This document shows, piece by piece, positions 17,970-38,393 of a stretch of 64,000 bases of DNA. The position numbers were made by a program, and so were the translations under genes. Below the pieces are notes generated by a model that did no database searches, was not told where the DNA came from, and saw only the letters and a list, made by a program, of their open reading frames with translations. Origin of the DNA: Myxococcaceae bacterium (GTDB lineage Bacteria; Myxococcota; Myxococcia; Myxococcales; Myxococcaceae); the NCBI GenBank assembly GCA_016793095.1, contig JAEUJQ010000006.1, positions 62,001-126,000 on the forward strand, in the 5' to 3' direction. Position 1 is the stretch's first letter. Each line of letters begins with the position of its first letter.

Positions 17970-20900
17970 TCAGCTCTCGATGCCGACTGCCTGCACGCCG
18001 TGGCGGTAGATGTAGATCCGCTCGGTGTTGGTGCGGTTGTCCGCAGGAATGACGAAGAAGCCGGGCCCGCCCTGCTGGTGATCGCGCGAGAAGCCCGCCA
18101 CCTGCCGCCCGTCCTTGAACGTCACCCGCACCTTCTGTCCGTCGCCAACGGGTGAACGCGCGCCGGGGGCCAGCATGAAGAAGATGGCCTTGACCCGTCC
18201 GAGGGCGATGGGTTCGACGCCGCCGGTCTGGTTCTCGAGCGAGAGGCTGTCAGCACCGAGATCTGGGTCCTTGAGGGCTCCGCGCTTCACCTGACCTTCC
18301 ATGGTGTGAAGGATGACGCGGTGATCACCGCGCACGAGCACCGGCGAGCCGCCCTTGACGCTCGCGCTTCGATCGAACAGCTGATCGGCCATCACGCGTG
18401 CGGGTGGCTGGGGAGCGACGGGGGCCTGCACAGGGGCCACGGGTGCTGGCGCGATCTGAGGTGCGACTGCCCGCTGAACCGGGGGCACAACGGGCGTCGT
18501 CGCCGCCCTGGCTGGAGCTGGAGCTGGAGCCGCGACTCCGATGGGCACCGCCACACGGGTGTCGATGGGCAGGTGGGCCGGCGCGGGGGCAGCCGGGATG
18601 CCAGCGTCCCATCCGGGCTCTGCTGCGGGCTCCTCTTCGACCACGACGCCCTGAATGATGTCGCCGTCGGACTCTTCCTCGACATCGATGGAGGGGCCGG
18701 TTCGTTGCCACGCCTCGCCCGCGCCGCTGAGCGCGTCGGTGCCGAGGAAGTCGGCGTTTGACGAGAGCTCGACCTTCTCCTCTTCGTACGCGCCCGGTCC
18801 GGAGCCGGTCATGTTGTTCGCGAGGCTCGCGGCCGGACCGGACTGGACCTCGAACGGCTCGACATCGACCGACACGTCGCCGACGTCGATCGTCGGCATG
18901 TCACCCGTCAGCGCTCCCTGAATGAAATCGGCGTTGGAGGCGAGCTCGACGCGCTCCTCGGGGCTCCCGCCGAGATCCACCTCTTCGCCTTCAGGTGCGG
19001 CGCCGAACGCAGACCGATCGGGGGCGGGCGCGGGCGGCTCGGGCTCGTTCTGCCAACTGCTGGCGAACACCTCGGAGCTGGACCCGGGGGTCGTCGGCGC
19101 GTCCCAGTTGCTCGCGAACACCTCGGGCTGGGCGGTGGCGGGCTTCGGCGCGGGCGCAGGCGGCGCGTCCCAGTTGCTCGCGAACACCTCGGGCTGGGCG
19201 GTGGCAGGCTTCGGCGCGGGGGCAGGCGGCGCGTCCCAGTTGCTCGCGAACACCTCGGGCTGGGCGGTGGCAGGCTTCGGCGCGGGCGCAGGCGGCGCGT
19301 CCCAGTTGCTCGCGAACACCTCGGGCTGAGCGGGCTTTGGCTGGGGCGCCGGTGCAGGCGGAGCGTCGCGAAGGTGCGGAATCGGCGCCTTCGAGGGACC
19401 CGAGGGGAGCGGCGGAGGGATCGCCAGAGCGTCGAAGGCGGTCGCAGAGGGTGCCAGCCCCTTTGGTTCGGCAACCTCCGGTTGGACCTCTTCTGTGAGA
19501 GCGCCGCCGACGACGGGCAGCTCGTCGAGCGCAGCCGGCGCGCTCTCCACGATCGGCAGGTCATCAAGCGAGGGCGAGAAGGCCTCAGCGGGAACGGTCT
19601 TCTTCGACGCTTCGACGACTTCGGCCCAGTTGGCGTCCGGAGCCTCGGGTTCGGCCGCCATCGAGACGTCGATCGAGTCATCATCGACGCTCGAAACCGA
19701 GGCGAGGGGCGAGACTCCGCCGGTCGGGAACGCCGTGTCTGCTGCGGTCGTTGCTGGTCCGCCCGTCAGTGACGTCGTTCCCGCAGTGGACGCGACCTCC
19801 ACGACCGGCGCGACCTCCATGACCGGCGCGACCTCCATGACCGGCGCGACGTCCATGACCGGCGCGACGTCCATGACCGGCGCGACCTCCACGACCGGCG
19901 CGACCTCCATGACCGGCGCAGCATCCACGCCTGGCGGCGCGACCTCCACGACCGGCGGCGCGACCTCGACGACCGGCGGCGCGACCTCGACGACCGGCGC
20001 TCCCTCGACGACCGGCGCGACCTCCACGACGGGCGCGACCTGGACGACGGGCGCGACCTCCACGACGGGCGCGACCTCGACCGGCGCGACCTCCACGACG
20101 GGTGCGACCGGCGCGACCTCGACCGGCGCGACCTCCACGACGGGCGCGAACTCCGCGACCTCCACCGGCGCGACGGCCAGGAGCGGCGCGACCTCCACGA
20201 GCGGAGACCCCTCGGCCGGTGCGACAGCAAGCGATGCGACGTTCACGACCGGCGCGACCTCGACCGGTGCGACCTCGACGAGCGGTGCGACGTCTCCGAC
20301 GGGCGCGAGCTCGACCGGCGCGACCTCGACCGGTGCGACCTCGACGAGCGGTGCGACGTCTCCGACGGGCGCGAGCTCGACTGGCGCGACCTCGACCGGT
20401 GCGACTTCGGAGAGCGGAGCGACGTCGACGACGGGCGCGGTCTCGCCTGGAGCGAGCTCGACTGGTGCGACCTCGACCGGTGCGACCTCAGCGATCGGCG
20501 CGAAGTCCGCAAGCCCTGCTCGCACAGCCTCAACGGGCGCGGATGTTCCCCCAGCCACAGGAGGCGCCCCCTCGACGAAGGTCGGGCTCTCGAGGACTGG
20601 CACCGTCGTGACTGGCGCCTCGACCGCCGTCGGCGTCTCCTCGAACGGAGGCACGTCGAGGAGCATGCTGGGCGTCGGGTCGATCACCGGCACCGGCGTG
20701 ACGTCCACCATCATGCTCGGCGTCGGGTCGATCACCGGCTCCGGGGTGACGTCCACCATCATGCTCGGCGTCGGATCGATCACCGGCGCGTCATCAACCG
20801 TTCGTTTCGCTTCGACCACCGCGCCGCCGAGCATCGGAAGATCCGGCAGCACGTCGGTCACGGCGTCGGCCGGCAGCTCGGTGACCCCGCTCGACGAGAC

Positions 20901-21977
20901 TTCGGAGACCTCGATGTCAGCCACCTCGGTCACGCCCGCGAGGCCGGTCTCGAGCACCGGCGTCTCGCTGAGGGCGCTCGCCACCACCGCTTCGAGCTTC
21001 GTCTCGGCGCCCTTCGAGCCCTGCGCATCGACCAGCGGCAGGTCCGACTCCTCGGGGGCCGGCAACAGCGGGGAGACGGCGGTCGCCTCGATGCGCCGTT
21101 CGGGTGGCCTGGGCTGCGCTGGCTTCGAGAAGAGCGCCCCGCCAAAGAGCGGGGTCGCAGGCAGCTTCACCGGCTCGGGAGGAGCAGCAACAGGCGCCGG
21201 AGCCGGCTTCTCGTCATCGTCGAGCAGCGCCGAGCGGAGATCGGCGACCGGGTCCTCCGGCACGTTGAGGTTGAGCGGGGGCGGCGGTGACGCGGGACGC
21301 TCGGGAGCGGCTGGAGCCGACGGGATCGGAGACACCTCGTCATCCGAGATCTCCATCACCTCATCGAGCGGTGCGGCCTGTGGCGGAGCCGCAGGCTGCG
21401 GAGCGGGCGCGGCGGGCTGGCCTGGCCACGGTTGCGGCCAACCGGGCTGCGGCGCGGGCGCGGGCTGCTGCCACTGCTGCGCGTAGCCCTGCTGGGCGTA
21501 GCCGTACTGCTGCTGGTTGGGGTCGTAGTAGCCCTGCTGCGGTTGTCCGTACCAACCCTGCTGCTGCGGTGGGTAACCCGGCTGCGCGTACTGCGGCGCC
21601 TGCTGGTACTGCGACGGATCGTAGCCGTAGTCCTGCTGCGACGGGTCGTAGCCCTGCTGCGGCTGCTGAGACGGATCGTACGGCGCCTGCGGCTGGTTCG
21701 GGTCGTAGTACCCCTGCTGATCGCCGTACCACTGCTGCTGTTGCTGGTTGGGATCGTAGTAGCCCGGGGGCTGCCACTGCTGCTGGGTCGGGTCGAAGCC
21801 GGGCGGGTACGGGTACCACTGCCCGTCAGCGCCCCAGGTGCCGTACTGGCTCATGTCGACCCCGAGCTGGGTCGCCAGCTCGTACCAGCGCTGCTCCTCC
21901 GGCATTGTCAGCCCGTTCGTCTTCCGCTTGTCGTCAAGGAAGCGGAACTCGCGCATGGCTGCCTGGGTATCCGACAT
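17970..21977 (-). CDS. Very large repeat protein with conserved N- and C-terminal modules
   Basis: A 1335-residue protein. Residues 1-55 form a compact conserved-looking module ([11 protein letters not shown] ... EEQRWYEL). Residues 60-190 are Tyr/Gln/Pro-rich with repeated YDPNQQ-like units. Then come three copies of a segment containing [11 protein letters not shown] (about 395-442), a long array of VEVAPV-type hexapeptides (about 490-735), and four copies of a 22-residue unit containing [16 protein letters not shown] (about 880-980). After an acidic region it ends in a globular domain (about 1195-1335, [14 protein letters not shown] ... [18 protein letters not shown]), which resembles the DUF6982-type domain of myxobacterial proteins (recalled, not searched). 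No signal peptide or membrane helix, so it should be cytoplasmic. Function unknown; a scaffold with a flexible extended middle is plausible. Confidence 0.82.
19040..19335 (-). repeat. 66-bp in-frame tandem repeat inside the large protein gene
   Basis: Three to four nearly identical 66-base units encoding a 22-residue [16 protein letters not shown]-type repeat. The central copies differ by only one or two bases, which implies recent expansion or homogenisation. Confidence 0.88.
19783..20500 (-). repeat. 18-bp-based coding repeat array (VEVAPV)
   Basis: About 700 bases of degenerate 18-base units, seen on the plus strand as CGGCGCGACCTCCACGAC variants, encoding VEVAPV, VMDVAPV and related hexapeptides in frame. 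Units are imperfect and sometimes shortened by three or six bases, which keeps the frame. Confidence 0.88.
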
Positions 21978-22015
21978 AAGAACGGCGCGAGCTTAGTCCC
22001 TGATTCCCCAGTTCC

Positions 22016-22112
22016 AAAGGAACCGATTGGTCACCTGGAGAGGATTTCGTCGCGAACGGACTCGCACCAGGTCGGAGGAGGTGTGCACGAACAAAGACCT
22101 GGTTGGCGGGCG
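22016..22112 (-). repeat. Direct repeat R1: decayed copy of the peptidase gene 3' end
   Basis: About 97 bases that are nearly identical to 23601-23696, the last codons, stop codon and 3' flank of the peptidase gene. It differs by an eight-base deletion and a few substitutions. It encodes the same ESVRDEILSR end but no longer belongs to a gene. Confidence 0.85.
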
Positions 22113-22218
22113 CAGTGTACCTCCACCATGCGCAGCTGGTTCGGGACGCGGCGTAAGGGCAGCCAGCGGGGTTCGGATACCGCGATTCTCGGCGATCGTT
22201 CGCGCGGGACGGCAGCCG

Positions 22219-23559
22219 CTACTGGCAGATGAACGAGCCGGTCGAAGGGGCCGGAAAGCACTGGCCGAAGAGGCACGCGTTCACGCACTGCCTGGTCGCT
22301 GTGTTGTAGTCGAGACAGGTGTCGCAGTAGCAGCCGGTCTGGAAGCCAAACGAGGTCACGTAGGACCAGCAGCGGCCGGTCTGCAGGCCGGTCAAGCTGC
22401 GGCAGTTCTCGAGCCAGGTGCGACCGTTCGGTGTGCAGGCGAACCAGTGTTCGCGTTGGATGGTGCTCCAGCCGGTTGGCGCACAGCTCCCTGCGGAGTT
22501 CAGCGACGGGAAGCTCGACCCGGGCGTTCCGCAGGTGCAGCTTCCCGTCCCCGGGCCGCGACCGTTGGGCTGGCACTGGCCCGCGCCGCAATCGATGAGC
22601 TGACGACCCCATTGGGGGTCGCAGACGATCCAGAACTGTCCGCCCACGCAGAACTCCCGGGGTTCAGACGTCGAGCATGACGCGCCGACGGCCGCACAGC
22701 CGGCGAGGTCAGCAGTGGGCAGGAAGCCCTGGTTGCACCCGCAGAAGCGGCCATCGGGCGCGCAAGTACTGTTGGCCGGGCAGGTGCCACAGGTGCCTCC
22801 GCAGGCATCCGCCCCGCACACCCTGCCCTGACACTGGGGGACGCAGCCGCAGACATTGAGCGTGCCACCGCCTCCACACGTCTGGGGACCTACACAGCTT
22901 CCGCAGTTCGCCGTCCTCGGCAGCCCGCACGAGTCGGTACCCGTGAAGGTGCCGCACGTCTTTCCAGAGCGCGCGCAGAAGGCCGAATCGGACTCGGGCG
23001 CGCAGCGGCAGAGGTTGTCGCTCTGGCAGGTCAGCGGGGCCAGACAGGTCCCGCACATCGCCGTGCGACTCTGGCCACAGTTGTCGTTGCCGGTGACTGC
23101 GCCACAGTTCTTGCCCAGGCGGCTGCAGAAGGACGCCTCGGATTCGGGAGCGCACTGGGTGACGCAACGACCGCTCATGCACGCTTCGTTCGGGCTACAG
23201 ATGCCGCAGGAACCCGAGCAGCCGTCGTCACCGCAGATCTTCATCTGGCAGTTTGGCGTGCACGTAGAGCCTCCCGCCGTGCCACCACCCGACGAGCCCG
23301 CCGTGCCACCCGACGAGCCCGCCGTGCCACCACCCGACGAGCCCGCCGTGCCACCACCCGACGAGCCAGCCGTGCCACCACTCGACGAGCCAGCCGCACT
23401 ACCGCCCGCGCGCGAGCCGCCTCCAGAGGCGCCGCCTGCCGAATTCCCGCCGGCCGAGTTCCCTGCGTTTCCACCGACTGAGGAGCCAGCATCCAAACCG
23501 GGCGCGGAGGGGCCGCAGCCGACGGCACCCAGCGAGAGAACGAGAACGAACCGAGTCAT
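22219..23559 (-). CDS. Cys-rich lipoprotein with Gly/Ser linker
   Basis: A 446-residue lipoprotein with leader MTRFVLVLSLGAVGC and a lipobox at AVGC. Residues 20-100 are a Gly/Ser/Ala linker with repeated GGTAGSSG units, coded by 24-base repeats near 23276-23395. The rest is Cys-rich: three modules of the CAPESEASFC, CGAVTGNDNCG and CGTC pattern, then CGADACGGTCGTC, then a C-terminal part with regularly spaced cysteines that probably form disulfide-bonded small domains on the cell surface. GAGGGG five bases upstream of this ATG favours it over 23577. The gene and its promoter are enclosed by the R1/R2 direct repeats, which suggests later insertion between the two neighbouring genes. Confidence 0.83.
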   Translation of the reverse strand: MTRFVLVLSLGAVGCGPSAPGLDAGSSVGGNAGNSAGGNSAGGASGGGSRAGGSAAGSSSGGTAGSSGGGTAGSSGGGTAGSSGGTAGSSGGGTAGGSTCTPNCQMKICGDDGCSGSCGICSPNEACMSGRCVTQCAPESEASFCSRLGKNCGAVTGNDNCGQSRTAMCGTCLAPLTCQSDNLCRCAPESDSAFCARSGKTCGTFTGTDSCGLPRTANCGSCVGPQTCGGGGTLNVCGCVPQCQGRVCGADACGGTCGTCPANSTCAPDGRFCGCNQGFLPTADLAGCAAVGASCSTSEPREFCVGGQFWIVCDPQWGRQLIDCGAGQCQPNGRGPGTGSCTCGTPGSSFPSLNSAGSCAPTGWSTIQREHWFACTPNGRTWLENCRSLTGLQTGRCWSYVTSFGFQTGCYCDTCLDYNTATRQCVNACLFGQCFPAPSTGSFICQ

Positions 23560-23600
23560 TGTTGCCCCTCGCGCCATGAATGCGACCTTGAGTCCAGCTC

Positions 23601-23696
23601 AAAGCGAACCGATTGGTCACCTGGAGAGGATTTCGTCGCGGACGGACTCCTCGAAGCGCACCAGGTCGGAGGAGGTGTGCTGAGCAAAGGCCTGGT
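23601..23696 (-). repeat. Direct repeat R2: parent copy at the peptidase gene 3' end
   Basis: The counterpart of R1. It covers about the last 26 codons of the peptidase gene, its stop codon (23617-23619) and 16 bases beyond. The parts outside the gene match as well as the coding part, so the duplication unit ignored the gene boundary. Confidence 0.85.
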
Positions 23697-25029
23697 CGAA
23701 GGGCTTCCCGCGACCGACGTCGCGGAGCAGGCCGACGAGATCGGCCATGCCGTACCGTTGCACGTAGCTGCGCATCGCCAGCGCCGCGTACGAATAGAGC
23801 AGGCCGGGATCCGATGACGCGATGAGCGGGTCGTCACGCATGGTGGCCAGCGAGGGCAGTCGTTTCTGGGAGGCGAGCTGGCGGATGTACGCGTCGTACC
23901 GGCCCTCGGGACGCGAGCGCCCCGTGTATTCCCACTCGACGAACTCGGCGAGGCCCTCGTTGACCCACTTCGGCAGCCCGCGGGTGTCGAACTGGCACAG
24001 CTCGTCCACCACGGCGTGCACGTACTCGTGCACCAGCGTCGCCTGGTTGCGGGGGTTGATCTCGGCTGAGTCGTTCATGCGGATCGCGCTCTGGGAGTAG
24101 AAGCCTGCGATGGCGGCCGCTGCCCAGGGCCCGTGGTGCAGGGTGAACTCGGACTTCGAGTAGAGGATCACATCGAGGGCGCTCTCGCGCGCGACGCCCA
24201 TGACGTTGCGGGCGGCCACGCGGGCCTCCTCGAGCGCGCCCTGGACGCGGCCCTCGTAGTCGGCGCGCTGACCGAAGTCGCGCTGGGCGTTGAAGTATCG
24301 GAAGCGGAAGTACGCGTTCTGGCGAATGCGGCGGCCTTCTTCATCGACGCTCGACTCGTAGGTGCGCGACTCTCCCAGCTTCGGAGGCGTCCGACGGCCG
24401 GGGCCGCGCAGGCCTTCGTCGTCCTCTTCGACCTCGTCCACTCCACCCGTCGAGGAGGGGGGCTCGACGGCCTCGACCGCCGCGCGCGGCTTCTCACGAC
24501 GAACGAGCTCGGCGCGAGCGCTCGAGGCCTCCCGCGCCAGGGACTCGGCGGTGACGAGCAGCGTCTGCGCCTCGTCGAACGCCTTCGAGCTCTTCGGGAT
24601 CGCGCGCAGCACCTCGACCGCGCCCCGGCCGTCCTTCTCCTCGAGCCGCAGCTTCGCGAGCTCGAGGGAGATCGCGCCGTCCTTCGGGTGGTGCTTGAGG
24701 CCAGCGCGAAGCGCGTCATCGGCCGCGGTGCGTTGATCGGTCTTGATGGCCGCGCGGGCGGTGCAGACGACCGCCTCGGGGGCGCTCGAGAAGGCGACGC
24801 TCTTCTCTCCGAGCGAGAACGCCATCACCGCGTCGGTCGCCAGCAGCGCGTCGCAGCCCTTCTGCAGCGCCCGGGCGATGCGCTGGCCGTCTTTGCCTTT
24901 GAAGGCCTTCGGCTGCGCCGCGGCGAACGCGAGGTACAGCTCTTCCCATTCCCCGCGTGCGGCGAAGCCCTCGGCCTGCGCGGCCTGGGGCGTGGCAGCC
25001 ATCGAGAGCGTGAGGAGCGCGACGAACAT
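23617..25029 (-). CDS. Secreted TPR-peptidase of the gluzincin (MA) type
   Basis: A 470-residue protein with a signal peptide (cleavage near AAQA). The N-terminal half (about 25-165) is helical and TPR-like, followed by a charged linker. A zinc metallopeptidase domain then carries HEYVH at 334-338 and a third ligand, Glu358, in NEGLAEF. This is the arrangement of the peptidase MA-like families. A substrate cannot be predicted; activity would be in the periplasm or outside. It lies 44 bases after the cNMP-binding gene on the same strand and may share its transcript. Its 3' end has been duplicated downstream (22016-22112). Confidence 0.86.
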   Translation of the reverse strand: MFVALLTLSMAATPQAAQAEGFAARGEWEELYLAFAAAQPKAFKGKDGQRIARALQKGCDALLATDAVMAFSLGEKSVAFSSAPEAVVCTARAAIKTDQRTAADDALRAGLKHHPKDGAISLELAKLRLEEKDGRGAVEVLRAIPKSSKAFDEAQTLLVTAESLAREASSARAELVRREKPRAAVEAVEPPSSTGGVDEVEEDDEGLRGPGRRTPPKLGESRTYESSVDEEGRRIRQNAYFRFRYFNAQRDFGQRADYEGRVQGALEEARVAARNVMGVARESALDVILYSKSEFTLHHGPWAAAAIAGFYSQSAIRMNDSAEINPRNQATLVHEYVHAVVDELCQFDTRGLPKWVNEGLAEFVEWEYTGRSRPEGRYDAYIRQLASQKRLPSLATMRDDPLIASSDPGLLYSYAALAMRSYVQRYGMADLVGLLRDVGRGKPFDQAFAQHTSSDLVRFEESVRDEILSR

Positions 25030-25073: not shown

Positions 25074-25589
25074 TCAGAACGACCAGCGGTTCAAGATGCC
25101 CGCGAACTCCGCCAGCTCTTCGCGCTTGCCCTCGCCCTTTTTCTTCGAGTCGCCGACGAGACGATCGTTGATGGCCGCCAGCCGCTGCGCCATCACCTGC
25201 GCGAGGTTGGCCACCACCTTGAGCGACGCCAGGTTGTCGGCCTTGATGAGCTTCTGCACGCGCTTGCTGGGGATCTTCAGCACCGCCACGTCTGTCTTCG
25301 CGGTCGCGGTGGCCGAGCGGGCGTCGCCGGGGCTGACGACGCTCATCTCGCCGAGCACCGCGTGGGTCGAGAGGGACGCGAGCTCGACGTTCTTCTTCGT
25401 CACCGCCACCTCTCCGCCGAGGATCACGTAGAGCGCGTCGCCCTCGTCACCTTCGCGAAACAGCGTGCGCCCCTTCTCGAGTTCCTGCTCGAGGGCGACC
25501 TCGAAGAACTCCGCGGCCTCGGGCACCGTGAGGCCCTGGAAGATGGGGATCTGGACGAGCTTCTTGAGCAGCGACGCAGGGATCGACAT
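25074..25589 (-). CDS. Cyclic-nucleotide-binding domain protein
   Basis: A 171-residue protein made almost entirely of one CAP_ED/cNMP-binding domain (about 15-130: LFREGDEGDALYVILGGEVAV, LGEMSVVSPGDARSATATA) plus a charged helical tail. No DNA-binding domain, so it is a stand-alone sensor. The phosphate-binding cassette has GEMSVVSPGDARSA, close to the consensus GExALL..xxRxA. A GGAGG-containing leader fits the ATG. It is located 28 bases after the glutamate dehydrogenase gene, likely as part of the same operon. Confidence 0.88.
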   Translation of the reverse strand: MSIPASLLKKLVQIPIFQGLTVPEAAEFFEVALEQELEKGRTLFREGDEGDALYVILGGEVAVTKKNVELASLSTHAVLGEMSVVSPGDARSATATAKTDVAVLKIPSKRVQKLIKADNLASLKVVANLAQVMAQRLAAINDRLVGDSKKKGEGKREELAEFAGILNRWSF

Positions 25590-25617
25590 GAGGGGCCCCT
25601 CCGGGGTTGGGTCTTCT

Positions 25618-26847
25618 TCAGATGCCGCGCAGCACCGTCGCCTTGCCGACCCGTCCGATGGCGAGCACGTACGCGCTGGTGCGCAGAGGCAGCTTCCGCG
25701 AGCGTGAGATCTGCCCCACCTTCTCGTAGGCCTCCTTCATCACCCGCTGGAGCTCGGTGGTGACGCGCTCCTCTTCCCAGGTGATGTGCTGCATGTTCTG
25801 CACCCACTCGAAGTAGCTGACGGTGACGCCGCCGGCGTTGGCGAGGATGTCGGGCACCACGAGCACGCCGCGCTGCTCGAAGATCTCGTCGGCCTCGGGC
25901 GTGCACGGCGCGTTGGCGCCCTCGAGCACGATGCGGGCGCGCACCTCGGGAGCGACGCGTTTGTCGATGACGGCGCCGACGGCCGCAGGCACCAGCACGT
26001 CGCAATCGGCGACCAGCACGTCTTCGTTGCGGCAGGGCGTGCCGCCGGGGAAGCCGCGCACGGTGCCGTTCTTCTTCACGAACTCGAACAGCCCGGGCAC
26101 GTCGAGGCCCTTGGGGTTGGCCACGCCGCCGTGCACGTCGCTCACCGCCACCAGCTTCCCGCCGTCTTCATGGAACAGCCGCGCCGCGTGGCTGCCGACG
26201 TTGCCGAAGCCCTGGATCGCGAAGCGCGTGCCCTGCACCTGCTGGCCGACGTCGCGCAGGATCTCGCGAGCGATGAACTGAAGGCCGCGGGCGGTGGCGG
26301 TCTCGCGGCCGCGACTCCCGTAGAGGTCGATGGGCTTGCCCGTCACCACCGCTGGCGAGTGGCCGTGGTAGCGCGAGTACTGATCCATGATCCACGCCAT
26401 CACCTGCGGGTTGGTGTTCATGTCAGGCCCGGGGATGTCGCGGGTGGGCCCGATGACGTCGTGGATCTGATCGACGAACTTGCGGGTGAGGCGCTCGAGC
26501 TCCTTCACCGAGAGCTCAGCGGGGTTGCACTGGATGCCCCCCTTGGCGCCGCCGTACGGCAGGTTCACCACGGCGGTCTTCCACGTCATGAGCGAGGCGA
26601 GGCCGAGCACCTCGTCGTCGGTCACGTCGGGGTGGAAGCGCAGGCCGCCCTTCATCGGCCCACGCGCGTTGTCGTGCTGCACGCGGTAGCCCTTGAAGGT
26701 GCGGATCTCTCCGCTGTCGAGCTCGATGGAGACCTGCACGCTGACGCTGCGCAGGGGCGTGGCGAGGAGCGTCTCGATTCGCTCACCGACGTCCATGATG
26801 CGCGCGGCCTTCTTGAAGTACCAGGTGGCGGCTTCTGCCGAAGTCAT
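25618..26847 (-). CDS. gdhA: Glutamate dehydrogenase (Glu/Leu/Phe/Val family)
   Basis: A 409-residue NAD(P)-dependent dehydrogenase that interconverts glutamate with 2-oxoglutarate and ammonia. Lys66 in GPMKGGLRFHP, Lys90 in MTWKTAVV and catalytic Lys102 in PYGGAKGGI are present, and the Rossmann motif GFGNVGSHAA follows in the second half. The length fits the approx. 410-residue catabolic type. A leucine dehydrogenase is less likely because of length and motif context. It is first of a probable three-gene minus-strand run with the cNMP-binding protein and the peptidase, and divergent from a lipoprotein gene only 29 bases away. Confidence 0.95.
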   Translation of the reverse strand: MTSAEAATWYFKKAARIMDVGERIETLLATPLRSVSVQVSIELDSGEIRTFKGYRVQHDNARGPMKGGLRFHPDVTDDEVLGLASLMTWKTAVVNLPYGGAKGGIQCNPAELSVKELERLTRKFVDQIHDVIGPTRDIPGPDMNTNPQVMAWIMDQYSRYHGHSPAVVTGKPIDLYGSRGRETATARGLQFIAREILRDVGQQVQGTRFAIQGFGNVGSHAARLFHEDGGKLVAVSDVHGGVANPKGLDVPGLFEFVKKNGTVRGFPGGTPCRNEDVLVADCDVLVPAAVGAVIDKRVAPEVRARIVLEGANAPCTPEADEIFEQRGVLVVPDILANAGGVTVSYFEWVQNMQHITWEEERVTTELQRVMKEAYEKVGQISRSRKLPLRTSAYVLAIGRVGKATVLRGI

Positions 26848-26876: not shown

Positions 26877-28589
26877 ATGTCGTCCATGATTCGACTCACC
26901 GTCCCCGTCCTGGCCATCACCCTGCTCCTGGGGCCGGCCTGTGGCTCGCCGCCGCCCGTGAAGTGTCAGCCCTCCAACTGCTCCGGCTGCTGCAACGCCG
27001 CCGGGGAGTGTCTGGGCTTCATGAAGCAGGCGAAGGCCGAGTGCGGCTCCGGAGGCAGCGCGTGCGTGGCGTGCGCGTCGAACCAGACCTGCAGCGCGCA
27101 GGGCCGGTGCGTGGCGGGCTCGGCAGGCGGCGCTGCTGGCGGAGGTGAAGCGGGCGGCAGCGCCGGGGGCGCCGCGGGGGGCGCGGGGGGCGGGATGGTC
27201 TGCGGCGGCGAGGGCGACGTCTGCTGCGCGAACCAGGGATGCAACCTGACGCTCTCGTGCAGTCGCGGCCTCTGCATCCGCTGCGGTCAGACGAACCAGC
27301 CGTGCTGCAACAACTCGTGCCTGGGCTCGAACGTGTGCACCAACGGGACCTGCGTGTTCCCCAGCACGGCAGGTGGCTCGGCGGCAGGTGGCTCGGCGGC
27401 AGGTGGCTCGGCGGCAGGCGGCTCGGCGGCAGGTGGCTCGGCGGCAGGCGGCTCGGCGGCAGGCGGCTCGGCGGCAGGCGGCTCGGCGGCAGGCGGCTCG
27501 GCGGCAGGCGGTTCGGCGGCAGGCGGTTCAGCGGCTGGTGGTTCAGCGGCTGGTGGTTCAGCGGCGGGCGGCTCCGCGGGTGGGTCCGCGCTCCTCTCGG
27601 TAGGCGACCCCTGCATCCTCGGGACGGAGTGCGCTGATGGCCTCTGCCTCACGGCCGGGTTCATCGATGGCTACTGCTCGAAGACCTGCACGTCGGATTC
27701 CGACTGCACCTTCGGGAGCAACTGCGGGCGCAACCCGCAAGGGGGAGCCAACGTCTGCCTCAAGCGCTGTACGTCCGCAGGGACCAGCGCCGGCTGCCGT
27801 CCCGAGTATGTCTGCGACCGCGGCAACACCTCGCTCCTCAACGTGCCCGTCTGCTACCCGAAGTGCACCTCACCGTCGATCTGTGGCGCAGGCGCCTCCC
27901 AGTGCGACAGCCGTGGGTTCTGCTGCGGCGCCTCCCCCTACGCGTGCTGTGAAGGCACCACCTGCGCCACCGGGACCTGCTCCGCGGGCTATTGCTCAGG
28001 CTCCGGAACCGGTGGTGGCTCAGCGGGTGGCGGCTCCGCGGGTGGTGGCTCGGCTGCGGGCGGATCGGCTGCGGGCGGATCGGCTGCGGGCGGATCGGCG
28101 GCGGGTGGCTCGGCGGCCGGCGGCTCGGCTGGCGGTGGGTCCGCCGCGAATCCCGTCGGGTCAGCGTGCACCAGCCAGTCGCAGTGCACCGGCTCGGTCA
28201 ACGATCGTCGCTGCGAGCCAACGTGGACAGGCGACCCCCCATGGACCGGCGGTTACTGCACCATCGGCAACTGCAGCACCGGCACCTGTCCGTCGGGCAG
28301 CTCCTGCGCCCTGTACGCCGGCACGCCCAACCACTGCCTCGCCAACTGCGACTTCCAGACCCAGTCCGGGTGTCGAACCGGCTACATCTGCGAGCGCGGC
28401 CTCACGGACAACTTCCTGCAGGGCACGTGCTACCCGCGCTGCTCGCAGAACTCCCACTGCGGAGGGACCGGCCGCTGCGACACGGCGACCGGGTTCTGCT
28501 GCGGCAACCAGGGCTTCCGCTGCTGCACGACGGGAACGGCGTGCATGCAGGGCACCTGCCGGTCCGATCTCGGGGGCTATTGCGGGTGA
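26877..28589 (+). CDS. Cys-rich lipoprotein with two Ala/Gly/Ser repeat linkers
   Basis: A 570-residue lipoprotein with a lipobox at GPAC near residue 22. Cys-rich modules are joined by two linkers of repeated AAGGS pentapeptides. The first (about residues 165-240) has some fourteen units and the second (about 380-420) about eight. The Cys-rich parts carry CTSDSDCTFGSNC, CNNSCLGSNVC and CCEGTTC patterns, so a disulfide-rich surface protein is likely. An in-frame ATG at 26886 is an equally good start; neither has a clear ribosome binding site. The stop overlaps the XRE regulator start (GTGA), indicating translational coupling. Confidence 0.83.
   Translation: MSSMIRLTVPVLAITLLLGPACGSPPPVKCQPSNCSGCCNAAGECLGFMKQAKAECGSGGSACVACASNQTCSAQGRCVAGSAGGAAGGGEAGGSAGGAAGGAGGGMVCGGEGDVCCANQGCNLTLSCSRGLCIRCGQTNQPCCNNSCLGSNVCTNGTCVFPSTAGGSAAGGSAAGGSAAGGSAAGGSAAGGSAAGGSAAGGSAAGGSAAGGSAAGGSAAGGSAAGGSAAGGSAGGSALLSVGDPCILGTECADGLCLTAGFIDGYCSKTCTSDSDCTFGSNCGRNPQGGANVCLKRCTSAGTSAGCRPEYVCDRGNTSLLNVPVCYPKCTSPSICGAGASQCDSRGFCCGASPYACCEGTTCATGTCSAGYCSGSGTGGGSAGGGSAGGGSAAGGSAAGGSAAGGSAAGGSAAGGSAGGGSAANPVGSACTSQSQCTGSVNDRRCEPTWTGDPPWTGGYCTIGNCSTGTCPSGSSCALYAGTPNHCLANCDFQTQSGCRTGYICERGLTDNFLQGTCYPRCSQNSHCGGTGRCDTATGFCCGNQGFRCCTTGTACMQGTCRSDLGGYCG
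27369..27588 (+). repeat. 15-bp coding tandem repeat (AAGGS)
   Basis: About fourteen copies of a 15-base unit, GGCTCGGCGGCAGGT with T/C variation, in frame in the lipoprotein gene. A second, shorter array of the same type lies at about 28012-28142. Array length is likely variable by slippage. Confidence 0.9.
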
Positions 28590-35860: not shown

Positions 35861-36928
35861 CTACCCCAGGTTCTTCACGAGCGGCTCGAAGCGCGGCTTG
35901 TTCGTCGCCTTGTGGAACGCGTCTTCGCCCGAGATCCTGCCCTCTTCGGCCAGCTTGAAGAGCACGTCGTCCATCGCCTGCATGCCCATCTGCTTCCCTG
36001 ACTGGATGATGGAGTTGATCATCGGCGTGTTGCCCTCGCGGATGATGTTGGGCAACCCCGGCGTCTTGAGCAGGATCTCGTGCACCGCGAGGCGGCCGCG
36101 GCCGTCAGGGGTGCGGAGCAGGAGCTGCGAGACCACCCCCGCGAGCGACTCGGACAACATGGTGCGCACCTGTTGCTGCTGATCGGTGGGGAAGGCGTCG
36201 ATCACCCGGTCGATCGTCTTGGGCGCGCTGTTCGTGTGCAAGGTGCCGAACACCAGCACGCCCATCTCGGCCGCGGTGATGGCCAACGAGATCGTCTCCA
36301 TGTCGCGCATTTCGCCGACGAGGATGACGCCGGGGTCCTGGCGGATCGCGCTGCGCAGCGCCGCCGCGAAGCTCCTGGTGTCGTTGCCGACCTCGCGCTG
36401 GCTGAGGGTGCACTTCTTGTTCTGGTGCACGAACTCGACGGGGTCCTCGATGGTGACGATGTGCTTCGAGTGCCTCGTGTTGATGAGATCGATGATCGCC
36501 GCCAGCGTGGTGGACTTGCCCGAGCCGGTGGGGCCGGTGACGAGCACCAGGCCCTGCTCGAGATCGGCCAGCCCCGCGAGCGCCGCCGGCGCCTTCAGCT
36601 CTTCGAGCGTGCGGATCTTCTCGGGGATGATGCGGAACACCGCCGCCGCGCCGCGCTCCTGGTTGAAGTAGTTCGCGCGGAAGCGGGCGACCCCTGGCAG
36701 GGCGTAGGCGAAGTCGAGGTCGAGGTTCGACTCGAAGTGCCCCCACTGCTTCTCGTTCGCGAGCTCCTTGAGGTGATCGCGCAGGCTCGCGTCGGTGAAG
36801 GGCTGCCAGCCAGCGACGGGCTTCACCGCGCCGTGCTGGCGCATGTGCGGAGGCATGCCGGAGGCGAGGTGCAGATCGCTGCCGCCGGTGTCTTTGAGCT
36901 GCTTGAAGAGGACGTCGAGTCGGGCCAT
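35861..36928 (-). CDS. PilT-family twitching motility ATPase
   Basis: A 355-residue hexameric ATPase of the PilT/PilU type that powers type IV pilus retraction. The N-terminal PAS-like domain is followed by the Walker A motif GPTGSGKSTT near 132-141, the Asp box (TIEDPVEFVH), Walker B (ILVGEMRD) and the His box (GTLHTNSA). Of full family length. It ends a two-gene set with the larger PilT-like protein just upstream (7-base gap). Whether it is the main PilT or a paralogue cannot be told from the window alone, because no other pil genes are present. Confidence 0.93.
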   Translation of the reverse strand: MARLDVLFKQLKDTGGSDLHLASGMPPHMRQHGAVKPVAGWQPFTDASLRDHLKELANEKQWGHFESNLDLDFAYALPGVARFRANYFNQERGAAAVFRIIPEKIRTLEELKAPAALAGLADLEQGLVLVTGPTGSGKSTTLAAIIDLINTRHSKHIVTIEDPVEFVHQNKKCTLSQREVGNDTRSFAAALRSAIRQDPGVILVGEMRDMETISLAITAAEMGVLVFGTLHTNSAPKTIDRVIDAFPTDQQQQVRTMLSESLAGVVSQLLLRTPDGRGRLAVHEILLKTPGLPNIIREGNTPMINSIIQSGKQMGMQAMDDVLFKLAEEGRISGEDAFHKATNKPRFEPLVKNLG

Positions 36929-36935
36929 GGCGAGC

Positions 36936-38393
36936 TCAGGCGAAGCGCTTGGGGTCTTCTGCGTGGCGGCGGGCCTCGGCCTTCGTCACCTGCCCGCTCT
37001 TCACGAGTTCCAGCAGGCTGTCGTCGAGCAGGCACATGCCGTCGGCGCGCCCCGTCTGCATGATGCTGCGGATCTGGAACGTCTTCTCTTCGCGGATCAG
37101 GTTCGACACCGAGGGCTTCACGTAGAGCACCTCGAGGGCGGGCACGCGCCGGGTGCCGTCGGCGGTGAGGACGAGGCGCTGCGAGACGATCGCGCGCAGC
37201 GACTCCGACACCATCGCGCGAATCTGCGACTGCTGCTTCGGCGGGAACACGTCGAGGATGCGGTTGATGGTGCGGATCGCGTTGTTCGTGTGCAGGGTGC
37301 CCAGCACGAGGTGGCCCGTCTCGGCCGCCGAGATGGCGAGCTGAATCGTCTCGAGATCGCGCAGCTCGCCGATGACAATGATGTCGGGGTCTTCGCGCAG
37401 CGCCGCGCGCAGCGCGTTGGCGAAGCTGTGCGTGTGCTTGCCGGCCTGGCGTTGGTTCACCACGCAGCCCTGCGGCGTGTGCACGTACTCGATCGGATCT
37501 TCGACGGTGATGATGTGATCGTTCCGCGACGCGTTCAGCATGCTCACCAGCGCCGCGAGCGTGGACGACTTGCCGCACCCCGTCGGCCCGGTCACGAGCA
37601 CCATGCCCTGGTGGAAGTCGGTGAGCTTCGACAGGGACGCTGGCAGACCGAGGCTCTCGAGGGTCGGCGGGCTGGGGGGGATGGTGCGGAACACGCCGTC
37701 CCACCCGCGCTGCTGCTTGTAGAAGCTGCAGCGGAAGCGGCCAACGCCCGGCAGCGCGATGGCGAGATCGAGATCCCACGACTCGTCGAGCAGCTTGCGT
37801 TGCTCGGGGTCGAGCGCGTCTTTGAGGATCGACTCCACCTGCTGCGGGTCGAGCACGCCGGTCTTCAGCTCGCGCAAGACGCCGTTGACGCGCATCTGCA
37901 GCGGCGCCCCACCGTGAATGTGCACGTCGCTCGCCTTCGACTCGACGGCCTTGGTGAGGATCTGCTGCAGGGTGGGCAGCCGCCCGCCCCCCATCGAGGG
38001 GCGCGGCCCGACCTGGGGCAACGACGACGCGGACTGGGCGGTTGGGGCGGGCGGTGCGCTGGGCGCTGGAGCGACAGGGGTGGACGTCGCGGGTGCCGGT
38101 GCCGACGCCGCGGGTGCCGGTGCTGGCGCCGCGGGAGCAGCCGGTCGCGCGGGTGAGGCGGCGGGCGCCGGGGCCGCCGGGGCCGCACCGCCCTGCTTCG
38201 CCAGAAACTGGGCCTGCGCCTGCGCGAGCCACTTCGCCTGTTCAGCGGTGATGAACTTCAGCTCCATCAGGATCGCCGACAGCGGCTTCGCCTCGACCGC
38301 CTGTCGCTGCGCCGCCGAGGTGAGCTGCTCCTGGCTGATGAGCTTGTAGTGAACGGCGATTCGCCCCAGCAGCGCGTCTTCTTGACTCTGCAT
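36936..38393 (-). CDS. PilT-like ATPase with additional N-terminal domain
   Basis: A 485-residue ATPase. The N-terminal 65 residues (LGRIAVHYKLISQEQLTSAA) resemble the small helical domain of PilB/GspE-type assembly ATPases. A long Ala/Pro linker (about 70-125) follows, then a complete PilT core. It has the Walker A motif GPTGCGKSST, EDPIEYVHTPQG, the Walker B motif VIGELRDLETI and the His box GTLHTNNA. The fusion of a PilB-type N-domain and a PilT motor through a flexible linker is unusual. It is coupled to the standard-size PilT gene, suggesting a hetero-complex as for PilT and PilU. Confidence 0.9.
   Translation of the reverse strand: MQSQEDALLGRIAVHYKLISQEQLTSAAQRQAVEAKPLSAILMELKFITAEQAKWLAQAQAQFLAKQGGAAPAAPAPAASPARPAAPAAPAPAPAASAPAPATSTPVAPAPSAPPAPTAQSASSLPQVGPRPSMGGGRLPTLQQILTKAVESKASDVHIHGGAPLQMRVNGVLRELKTGVLDPQQVESILKDALDPEQRKLLDESWDLDLAIALPGVGRFRCSFYKQQRGWDGVFRTIPPSPPTLESLGLPASLSKLTDFHQGMVLVTGPTGCGKSSTLAALVSMLNASRNDHIITVEDPIEYVHTPQGCVVNQRQAGKHTHSFANALRAALREDPDIIVIGELRDLETIQLAISAAETGHLVLGTLHTNNAIRTINRILDVFPPKQQSQIRAMVSESLRAIVSQRLVLTADGTRRVPALEVLYVKPSVSNLIREEKTFQIRSIMQTGRADGMCLLDDSLLELVKSGQVTKAEARRHAEDPKRFA

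Follow-up and report, generated by a model that had tools for sequence, protein, structure and literature searches.

A Cys-rich lipoprotein gene inserted with a long target duplication at a conserved gene junction in a Myxococcaceae genome

The window, by which we mean the whole 64,000-nucleotide stretch of DNA that was analyzed, comes from an 8.8-Mb genome (G000) in 93 contigs with an estimated completeness of 98.65%. On its minus strand it carries, in order, genes for a Glu dehydrogenase, a cNMP-binding protein, a Peptidase_MA_2 protein, a Cys-rich lipoprotein, and a repeat-rich protein with a DUF6982 end. The peptidase gene (23617..25029, minus strand) encodes a HEYVH motif and matches PF13485 with an E value of 9.9e-9, above its cut-off. 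The genes for the cNMP-binding protein and Glu dehydrogenase (25074..26847, minus strand) provide a conserved upstream context for synteny, and the downstream neighbor (17970..21977, minus strand) is a repeat-rich gene whose product has DUF6982 at its C terminus (PF22478, E = 6.2e-26). Between peptidase and DUF6982 genes lies the lipoprotein gene (22219..23559, minus strand; 446 aa). Its best start is at 23559, and a GAGGGG ribosome site can be read just upstream.

The lipoprotein gene is bracketed by direct repeats. The first-pass annotation had noticed about 95 bases at 23601-23696 that recur at 22016-22112; this pair is real, and the alignable stretch is slightly longer (23594..23704 versus 22008..22111, both on the minus strand and in the same orientation). 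The proximal copy, 23594..23704, comprises the last 88 bp of the peptidase gene, stop codon included, and 23 bp beyond. The peptidase stop ends at 23617, and the 16 bases that the annotation had counted beyond it in its shorter repeat are correct. The distal copy, 22008..22111, is a non-coding remnant. Over the entire stretch the two copies share 92 matches against 11 mismatches, with 8 bases missing from the distal copy and one extra base present in it. In the core of the repeat (22015-22103 and 23600-23696), 84 of 88 aligned bases match; beyond these substitutions, the distal copy lacks the 8 bases, has one base in excess, and is a further base shorter near the 3' end. The annotation had placed the eight-base deletion in the distal copy, and rightly, because all six congeners examined (6/6) have the 8 positions in their peptidase gene.

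Within the window the repeat pair has a BLAST E value of 1.3e-24. A search of the whole genome found two copies only, the next match having an E value of 0.46. When direct pairs in the window were listed (at least 50 bp, within 8 kb, E at most 1e-8), five others appeared: four lie within the repeat-rich DUF6982 gene, and the fifth consists of coding paralogues. The copies enclose an inserted segment of 1482 bp (22112..23593, minus strand), made up of a 34-bp leader with the ribosome site, the lipoprotein coding sequence, and about 107 bp of 3' DNA. The lipoprotein is the sole likely gene in this segment; a search for relatives of the 107-bp 3' DNA found none. Beside the distal copy lies what corresponds to the ancestral junction (21978..22033, minus strand), consisting of a remnant stop codon and a 53-bp spacer with a conserved promoter-like motif.

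What does this junction look like in relatives? We compared the locus with those of six other species of the same Myxococcaceae-type genus (G001-G006, one genome per species). In all six congeners the peptidase and DUF6982 genes are immediate neighbors, in that order: no lipoprotein gene intervenes, and the stop-to-start gaps are 50-54 bp. Peptidase matches, many of them partial, occurred in 48 of 60 genomes, and 18 loci were compared: those of the six congeners and 12 from other genera of the family, where the same adjacency held in 11 of 11 informative loci. A named collection of 40 loci, which includes the six congeners and overlaps the other loci examined, gave the same adjacency in 39 of 39 informative loci, with gaps of 47-136 bp; the fortieth ends at a contig edge. 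The lipoprotein domain is absent from all 40 named peptidase loci in the stretches covered.

The empty orthologous site of the relatives holds a single repeat copy, and in G000 the distal copy together with its right flank rebuilds that empty junction. The remnant stop in the distal copy stands 53 bp from the DUF6982 start, compared with 50-54 bp in congeners, so the ancestral spacing has been kept. Read by eye, the spacer contains a CTTTGGGAAC-like motif followed by a CTAAGCT-like one, both conserved among congeners, which looks like a putative promoter of the DUF6982 gene. The motif is intact in G000 while the coding remnant of the distal copy decays. Because relatives have the empty site and the distal copy retains the ancestral spacing, the lipoprotein insertion can be polarized as derived. 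We conclude that the lipoprotein locus is, judging from these alignments, a derived insertion with a long target duplication.

This outcome bears on several suggestions in the first-pass annotation. An insertion with duplication of the junction, one of the two readings that it offered, is supported by the empty sites in relatives and the ancestral spacing beside the distal copy. The comparison with related genomes that it called for found one repeat copy and no lipoprotein gene in congeners, as insertion predicts; the opposite pattern, with both copies and the lipoprotein gene in all relatives, was not what the compared genomes held. The lipoprotein cassette, proposed there to be an accessory unit, is indeed present or absent between species, a statement at species level only since one genome stands for each.

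Aligning and dating the two copies, as had also been proposed, gave a core divergence of 4.5% (4/88). At 4-fold sites of the Glu dehydrogenase and peptidase genes, G000 differs from G001, G003, G005, and G006 by 0.27-0.45 (JC 0.33-0.69). Given 4/88 in the core as against 0.27-0.45 at 4-fold sites, the insertion is recent and much younger than the split of these species, with an age figure that is rough, the copies being short and partly under selection.

Read by eye, the start of the lipoprotein resembles a lipobox. The protein also contains a GG(S/T)-rich linker and CGxDGCGGxCG-type repeats, and its conserved C-terminal domain has many invariant cysteines. It matched no family in Pfam, NCBIfam, or PHROGs, and nothing in collections of plasmid and phage records at an E value of 1e-5. 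An AlphaFold2 model of the C-terminal domain was poor (mean pLDDT, 54). The domain is patchily distributed, occurring in 13 of 96 genomes of the family (E at most 1e-8) and 13 of 195 of the phylum (E at most 1e-15). Within the genus it was found in G000 and G005 only, and the G005 relative is the only full-length one found. This relative sits at a different locus, flanked on one side by a gene that Pfam identifies as a cobalamin adenosyltransferase and on the other by one without a known family. The site is empty in G003, which is 89-91% identical to G005 there, and in G001, the two genes being adjacent in both; the G005 insertion has a few duplicated bases at most. Members of the lipoprotein family have thus apparently been inserted independently at two places within the genus. 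The 4-fold divergence between the G000 and G005 lipoproteins is JC 1.1, whereas two host genes compared between these species give 0.34 and 0.59. Simple vertical orthology of the two lipoproteins is therefore unlikely, and the comparison points to separate acquisitions.

The GC3 of the lipoprotein gene is 0.80 (0.67 in the C-terminal part), and those of the peptidase and Glu dehydrogenase genes are 0.90 and 0.94. Values comparably low were seen in the G005 relative (0.82), the window's second lipoprotein (0.84), and the DUF6982 gene (0.84). Because other lipoproteins and the DUF6982 gene are also low, GC3 is only a weak hint of a foreign origin. Seven relatives of the lipoprotein lie in IMG/VR contigs, which are filed as viral. 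In the two such contigs tested, the neighbors are of phage type (a KilA-N anti-repressor-type protein in L171, and NlpC/P60 and P63C proteins in L175), and one of the IMG/VR contigs matches genome G092 without a difference across 10.6 kb. For the lipoprotein family as a whole, prophages may thus serve as a vehicle. In several of these contigs (L171-L177) the lipoprotein gene is followed by a metallopeptidase-like gene (with HEAAH or HEVAH in the two checked) and a small lipoprotein-like ORF; the three may possibly form a prophage cargo set. A metallopeptidase-like gene also follows the lipoprotein gene in several Myxococcus- and Corallococcus-type genomes (Pfam DUF6782, E = 0.008, below cut-off). 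A partner metallopeptidase for the G000 lipoprotein was considered and rejected: none lies at the locus, and the host peptidase is not meaningfully similar to the metallopeptidase-like gene.

Is the structure confined to this locus? Our scan covered 1,282,653 bases of G000, in 62 stretches that overlap by about 9 kb in all, and looked for direct repeats whose copies measure 45-400 bp, lie 300-8000 bp apart, and do not fall within one called ORF. Before counting, we removed any pair confined to a single called ORF and any pair that had at least two overlapping partners; the five G000 pairs that are coding on both sides were tallied separately. The scan returned nine pairs with a copy that is not wholly coding, five of which bracket one or two genes. 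The remaining four are a partial tandem gene copy (L212) and three short-spaced pairs at contig or stretch ends (one in L183, two in L195). When open stretches in any frame were checked, four of the five bracketing pairs stood; both copies of the fifth (L235) lie in one open stretch.

The first of the five cases is the peptidase 3' end that recurs beyond the Cys-rich lipoprotein gene (22008-22111 and 23594-23704). In case 2 it is the 3' end of a serine acetyltransferase (cysE-type) gene, 96 bp with 6 mismatches, that reappears beyond another Cys-rich lipoprotein-like gene of about 766 aa. The site is empty in G001, where cysE and the next gene stand tail to tail with 13 bp between their stops, and the distal copy in G000 gives 11 bp. 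Elsewhere G003 has a different gene there, G006 and G002 are uninformative, and a search at the chosen cut-off returned nothing for G004 and G005. Case 3 involves 88 bp (3 mismatches) of the 3' end of a phosphofructokinase (pfkA-type) gene; its remnant, beyond a ZIP-family transporter gene, has an 8-base deletion too. In G001 and G002 the site is empty, with pfkA adjoining the downstream gene, while G003, G004, and G006 have other genes at the site and G005 gave no match. The distal copy in G000 abuts a gene that was not found at that place in congeners. Case 4, in which 70 bp (8 mismatches) from the 3' end of a DegV gene recur beyond two genes of no known family, is uninformative in the three congeners where the DegV gene was found. 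In case 5 a small ORF lies between two copies of 68 bp (L235); this case is doubtful because both copies lie in one open stretch, and it may be an ordinary internal repeat. Empty sites in congeners are thus available for three cases (1, 2, and 3). These comparisons show the same type of scar recurring in G000, with at least two further scars having empty sites in congeners.

The junction downstream of pfkA (L197 6343-10111 in G000; L273-L277) has different genes in G000, G003, G004, and G006 and none in G001 and G002, and is, by its gene content, a likely insertion hotspot.

The same scan of G000 found no inverted pairs at 300-8000 bp. At spacings of 8-19.5 kb direct pairs of this kind were absent, and the inverted ones came to two overlapping hits, the only inverted pairs that the scan listed (L180, 4353-4441 and 17944-18074; 67-91 bp, about 13.6 kb apart). 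Among congeners it returned one pair in 169.8 kb (the G002 tandem copy) and one in 122 kb (L273), and at other loci of the family it returned 0 pairs in 194 kb. At 34 of the 40 named loci there were 20 pairs in 390.6 kb. Of these, 18 fall within a single open stretch on the downstream side of the peptidase, which is the place of the repeat-rich DUF6982 gene. Two remain, both in L102 from another Myxococcaceae genome, at 110-411 and 2676-2938, about 2.5 kb apart and near an ORF end (138 bp at 92% and 51 bp at 84%); they could be a further case or a tandem copy.

How might such scars arise? We think it probable that a DNA fragment was captured at a staggered break and, after fill-in, end-joined between the peptidase and DUF6982 genes. 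A fragment of about 1.5 kb, with the lipoprotein gene, its own ribosome site, and a 34-base leader, would have been captured at the peptidase/DUF6982 junction in this species. The target would have opened as a staggered break about 105 bases wide, spanning the last 88 bases of the peptidase gene with its stop codon. Fill-in of both ends and their joining to the fragment would then duplicate those bases. The proximal copy would keep the peptidase intact, and the distal copy would keep the upstream region and spacing of the DUF6982 gene, its former coding part being left to decay. The lipoprotein would presumably be read as the last gene of the peptidase operon. In this account we infer the stagger of the break, the end-joining, the origin of the fragment (from outside or from a since-lost copy), and the operon reading. 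We prefer capture at a break because it needs neither a donor in the cell nor pre-existing target sequence on the fragment.

Could a transposase have done the same? Terminal inverted repeats were sought in the first 50 bases at each end of the five inserts and none were found, three of the five scoring below the shuffle mean and two above it but unremarkably. The lengths of the repeat copies vary from 68 to 111. A transposase with a fixed duplication is unlikely on these two grounds. No transposase or integrase was present among the insert proteins searched (the lipoprotein had no family match; inserts of the other cases were searched against Pfam), and the insert is not multicopy, searches of G000 having turned up no further full-length copy of the lipoprotein. 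Compared with one another in both orientations, the five repeats show no common sequence; of 20 comparisons, none ranked in the top 5% of shuffles. A common attachment site is thus unlikely. Ku is present in G000 and in five of the six congeners, with no Ku match in G002. G028, which also lacks a Ku match, had 0 scars in 400 kb, compared with 1.3-1.6 expected at the G000 rate; zero has a chance of about 0.2-0.3 and is not significant. Counting against capture at a break, the stagger of about 105 bp is long, and the G005 insertion has few duplicated bases, so that long duplication is not constant. A donor for the lipoprotein fragment was searched for and none was found.

Other routes to these repeats have to be weighed. 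A circular or concatemeric molecule carrying the lipoprotein gene and a peptidase 3' end could recombine with the chromosomal copy in a single crossover (Campbell-type integration), leaving direct repeats. This gives exactly the observed structure, and a related model has been proposed for transposed genes of Arabidopsis, where the repeats described in the accessible part of the paper likewise match genic sequence of the target site (PMC2869330). Nevertheless, such a circle must already hold about 100 bp of the target gene, and four or five unrelated targets would mean as many prior captures. Moreover, the genome-wide search found no third repeat copy in G000. We regard this route as unlikely. 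Quite unlikely, in our judgment, is template switching during replication, in which a nascent strand would leave the peptidase 3' end, copy an ectopic lipoprotein template, and return about 100 bases upstream. Duplications of variable length with no element ends would result, as observed. However, a template must be available in the cell, and G000, at 98.65% completeness, gave no second full-length lipoprotein copy when searched.

Gene 3' ends are usual targets of genomic islands, which speaks for site-specific integration of a minimal element, the repeats being its attachment sites and the integrase acting in trans or since lost. The lipoprotein relatives in contigs filed as viral would fit as well. 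But five repeats with no common sequence, and a G005 insertion with no long repeat, make this explanation highly improbable. The annotation's second reading was a tandem duplication with replacement of its middle. This reading, applied to the peptidase gene and widened to include decay of the middle, can draw on an apparent decayed tandem copy one gene upstream in G002 (L064), on the partial tandem copy in G000 (L212), and on a copy spacing (1586) not far from the peptidase gene length (1413). Against this, a search beside the distal copy found no peptidase homology outside the roughly 105 bp of the repeat, the gene in the middle is intact and has a homologue, and in the other cases the spacings do not follow the length of the host gene. 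We find it hardly credible here.

Capture at a staggered break can be set beside systems already described. Neisseria minimal mobile elements place variable genes between conserved neighbors with no mobility genes, much like the pfkA junction here. They differ in relying on homologous recombination in both flanks, and they are not known to duplicate a neighbor's end. In Arabidopsis, single transposed genes are flanked by direct repeats of 30-287 bp in most of the cases listed (Woodhouse et al. 2010, PMC2869330). According to the same paper, in its available portion, many of these repeats match genic sequence of the empty orthologous target and are not transposon sequence. Some of the cases have a known donor copy, at which the repeat is sometimes present, and cases with no parental copy are also given. 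The resemblance to the present locus, as far as that portion goes, is one gene at a new place and a repeat present at the relatives' empty target; unlike Arabidopsis, the case here is bacterial, and no full-length parental lipoprotein copy was found elsewhere in G000.

Streptomyces ambofaciens, like G000 a bacterium with Ku, inserts segments of 30 bp to 18.8 kb at healed double-strand breaks, and the authors of that work speculate, in the text accessible, that end-joining could integrate foreign DNA (PMC5869714). There the breaks were induced and the inserts endogenous, and the accessible text describes no long target duplication around an inserted gene. SitA lipoprotein toxins, encoded on Mx-alpha prophage elements, combine a variable C-terminal toxin domain with an adjacent immunity gene, in the account given by the part of the source available (PMC5562445). 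They share with the present family the linkage of myxobacterial lipoprotein genes to prophage-like elements. A SitA/SitB identity was set aside for our gene, since, in contrast to the toxins described in this source, it has a conserved, Cys-rich C-terminal domain and is followed by the DUF6982 gene. Our literature search for bacterial gene insertions with long target duplications found no precedent; most subscription papers fell outside the search, and a precedent may exist.

More tentatively, and with more doubt than confidence, we suggest that this lineage gains single genes by a transposase-free route, in which conserved junctions are opened with a stagger of about 70-110 bases and a fragment is pasted in. 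If so, the four clear scars (five with the doubtful one) in about 1.28 Mb would extrapolate to some 27-34 recognizable recent scars per genome. Such a route would be a main source of new genes, perhaps linked to Ku, and one whose traces are legible in the sequence itself. Uptake of single foreign genes with neither mobile elements nor flanking homology is mostly inferred in bacteria once its traces have faded. Here the scars are still fresh enough to be legible, several occur in a single genome, sister species supply the matching empty sites, and the repair pathway that they predict is testable. What our analysis adds is that scars of this type recur in the genome and that three of the cases have empty sites in congeners; the mechanism is put forward as probable.

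Some features of the loci compared stand apart from these questions. Adjacent paralogous coding stretches, about 70% identical, occupy 36101-36721 and 37155-37775 of the window. In G002 the 3' part of the cNMP-binding gene is tandemly repeated beside the peptidase gene, apparently in decayed form (L064:3426-4130). A record titled Comamonas sp. (L118, BNCN01000001.1) carries a myxobacterial peptidase-DUF6982 locus and may be mislabeled or mixed. Finally, the second lipoprotein gene of the window, also Cys-rich and with GGSA repeats, adjoins the Glu dehydrogenase gene at 26877-28589, a position seemingly kept in congeners, as judged from overlapping-frame matches.
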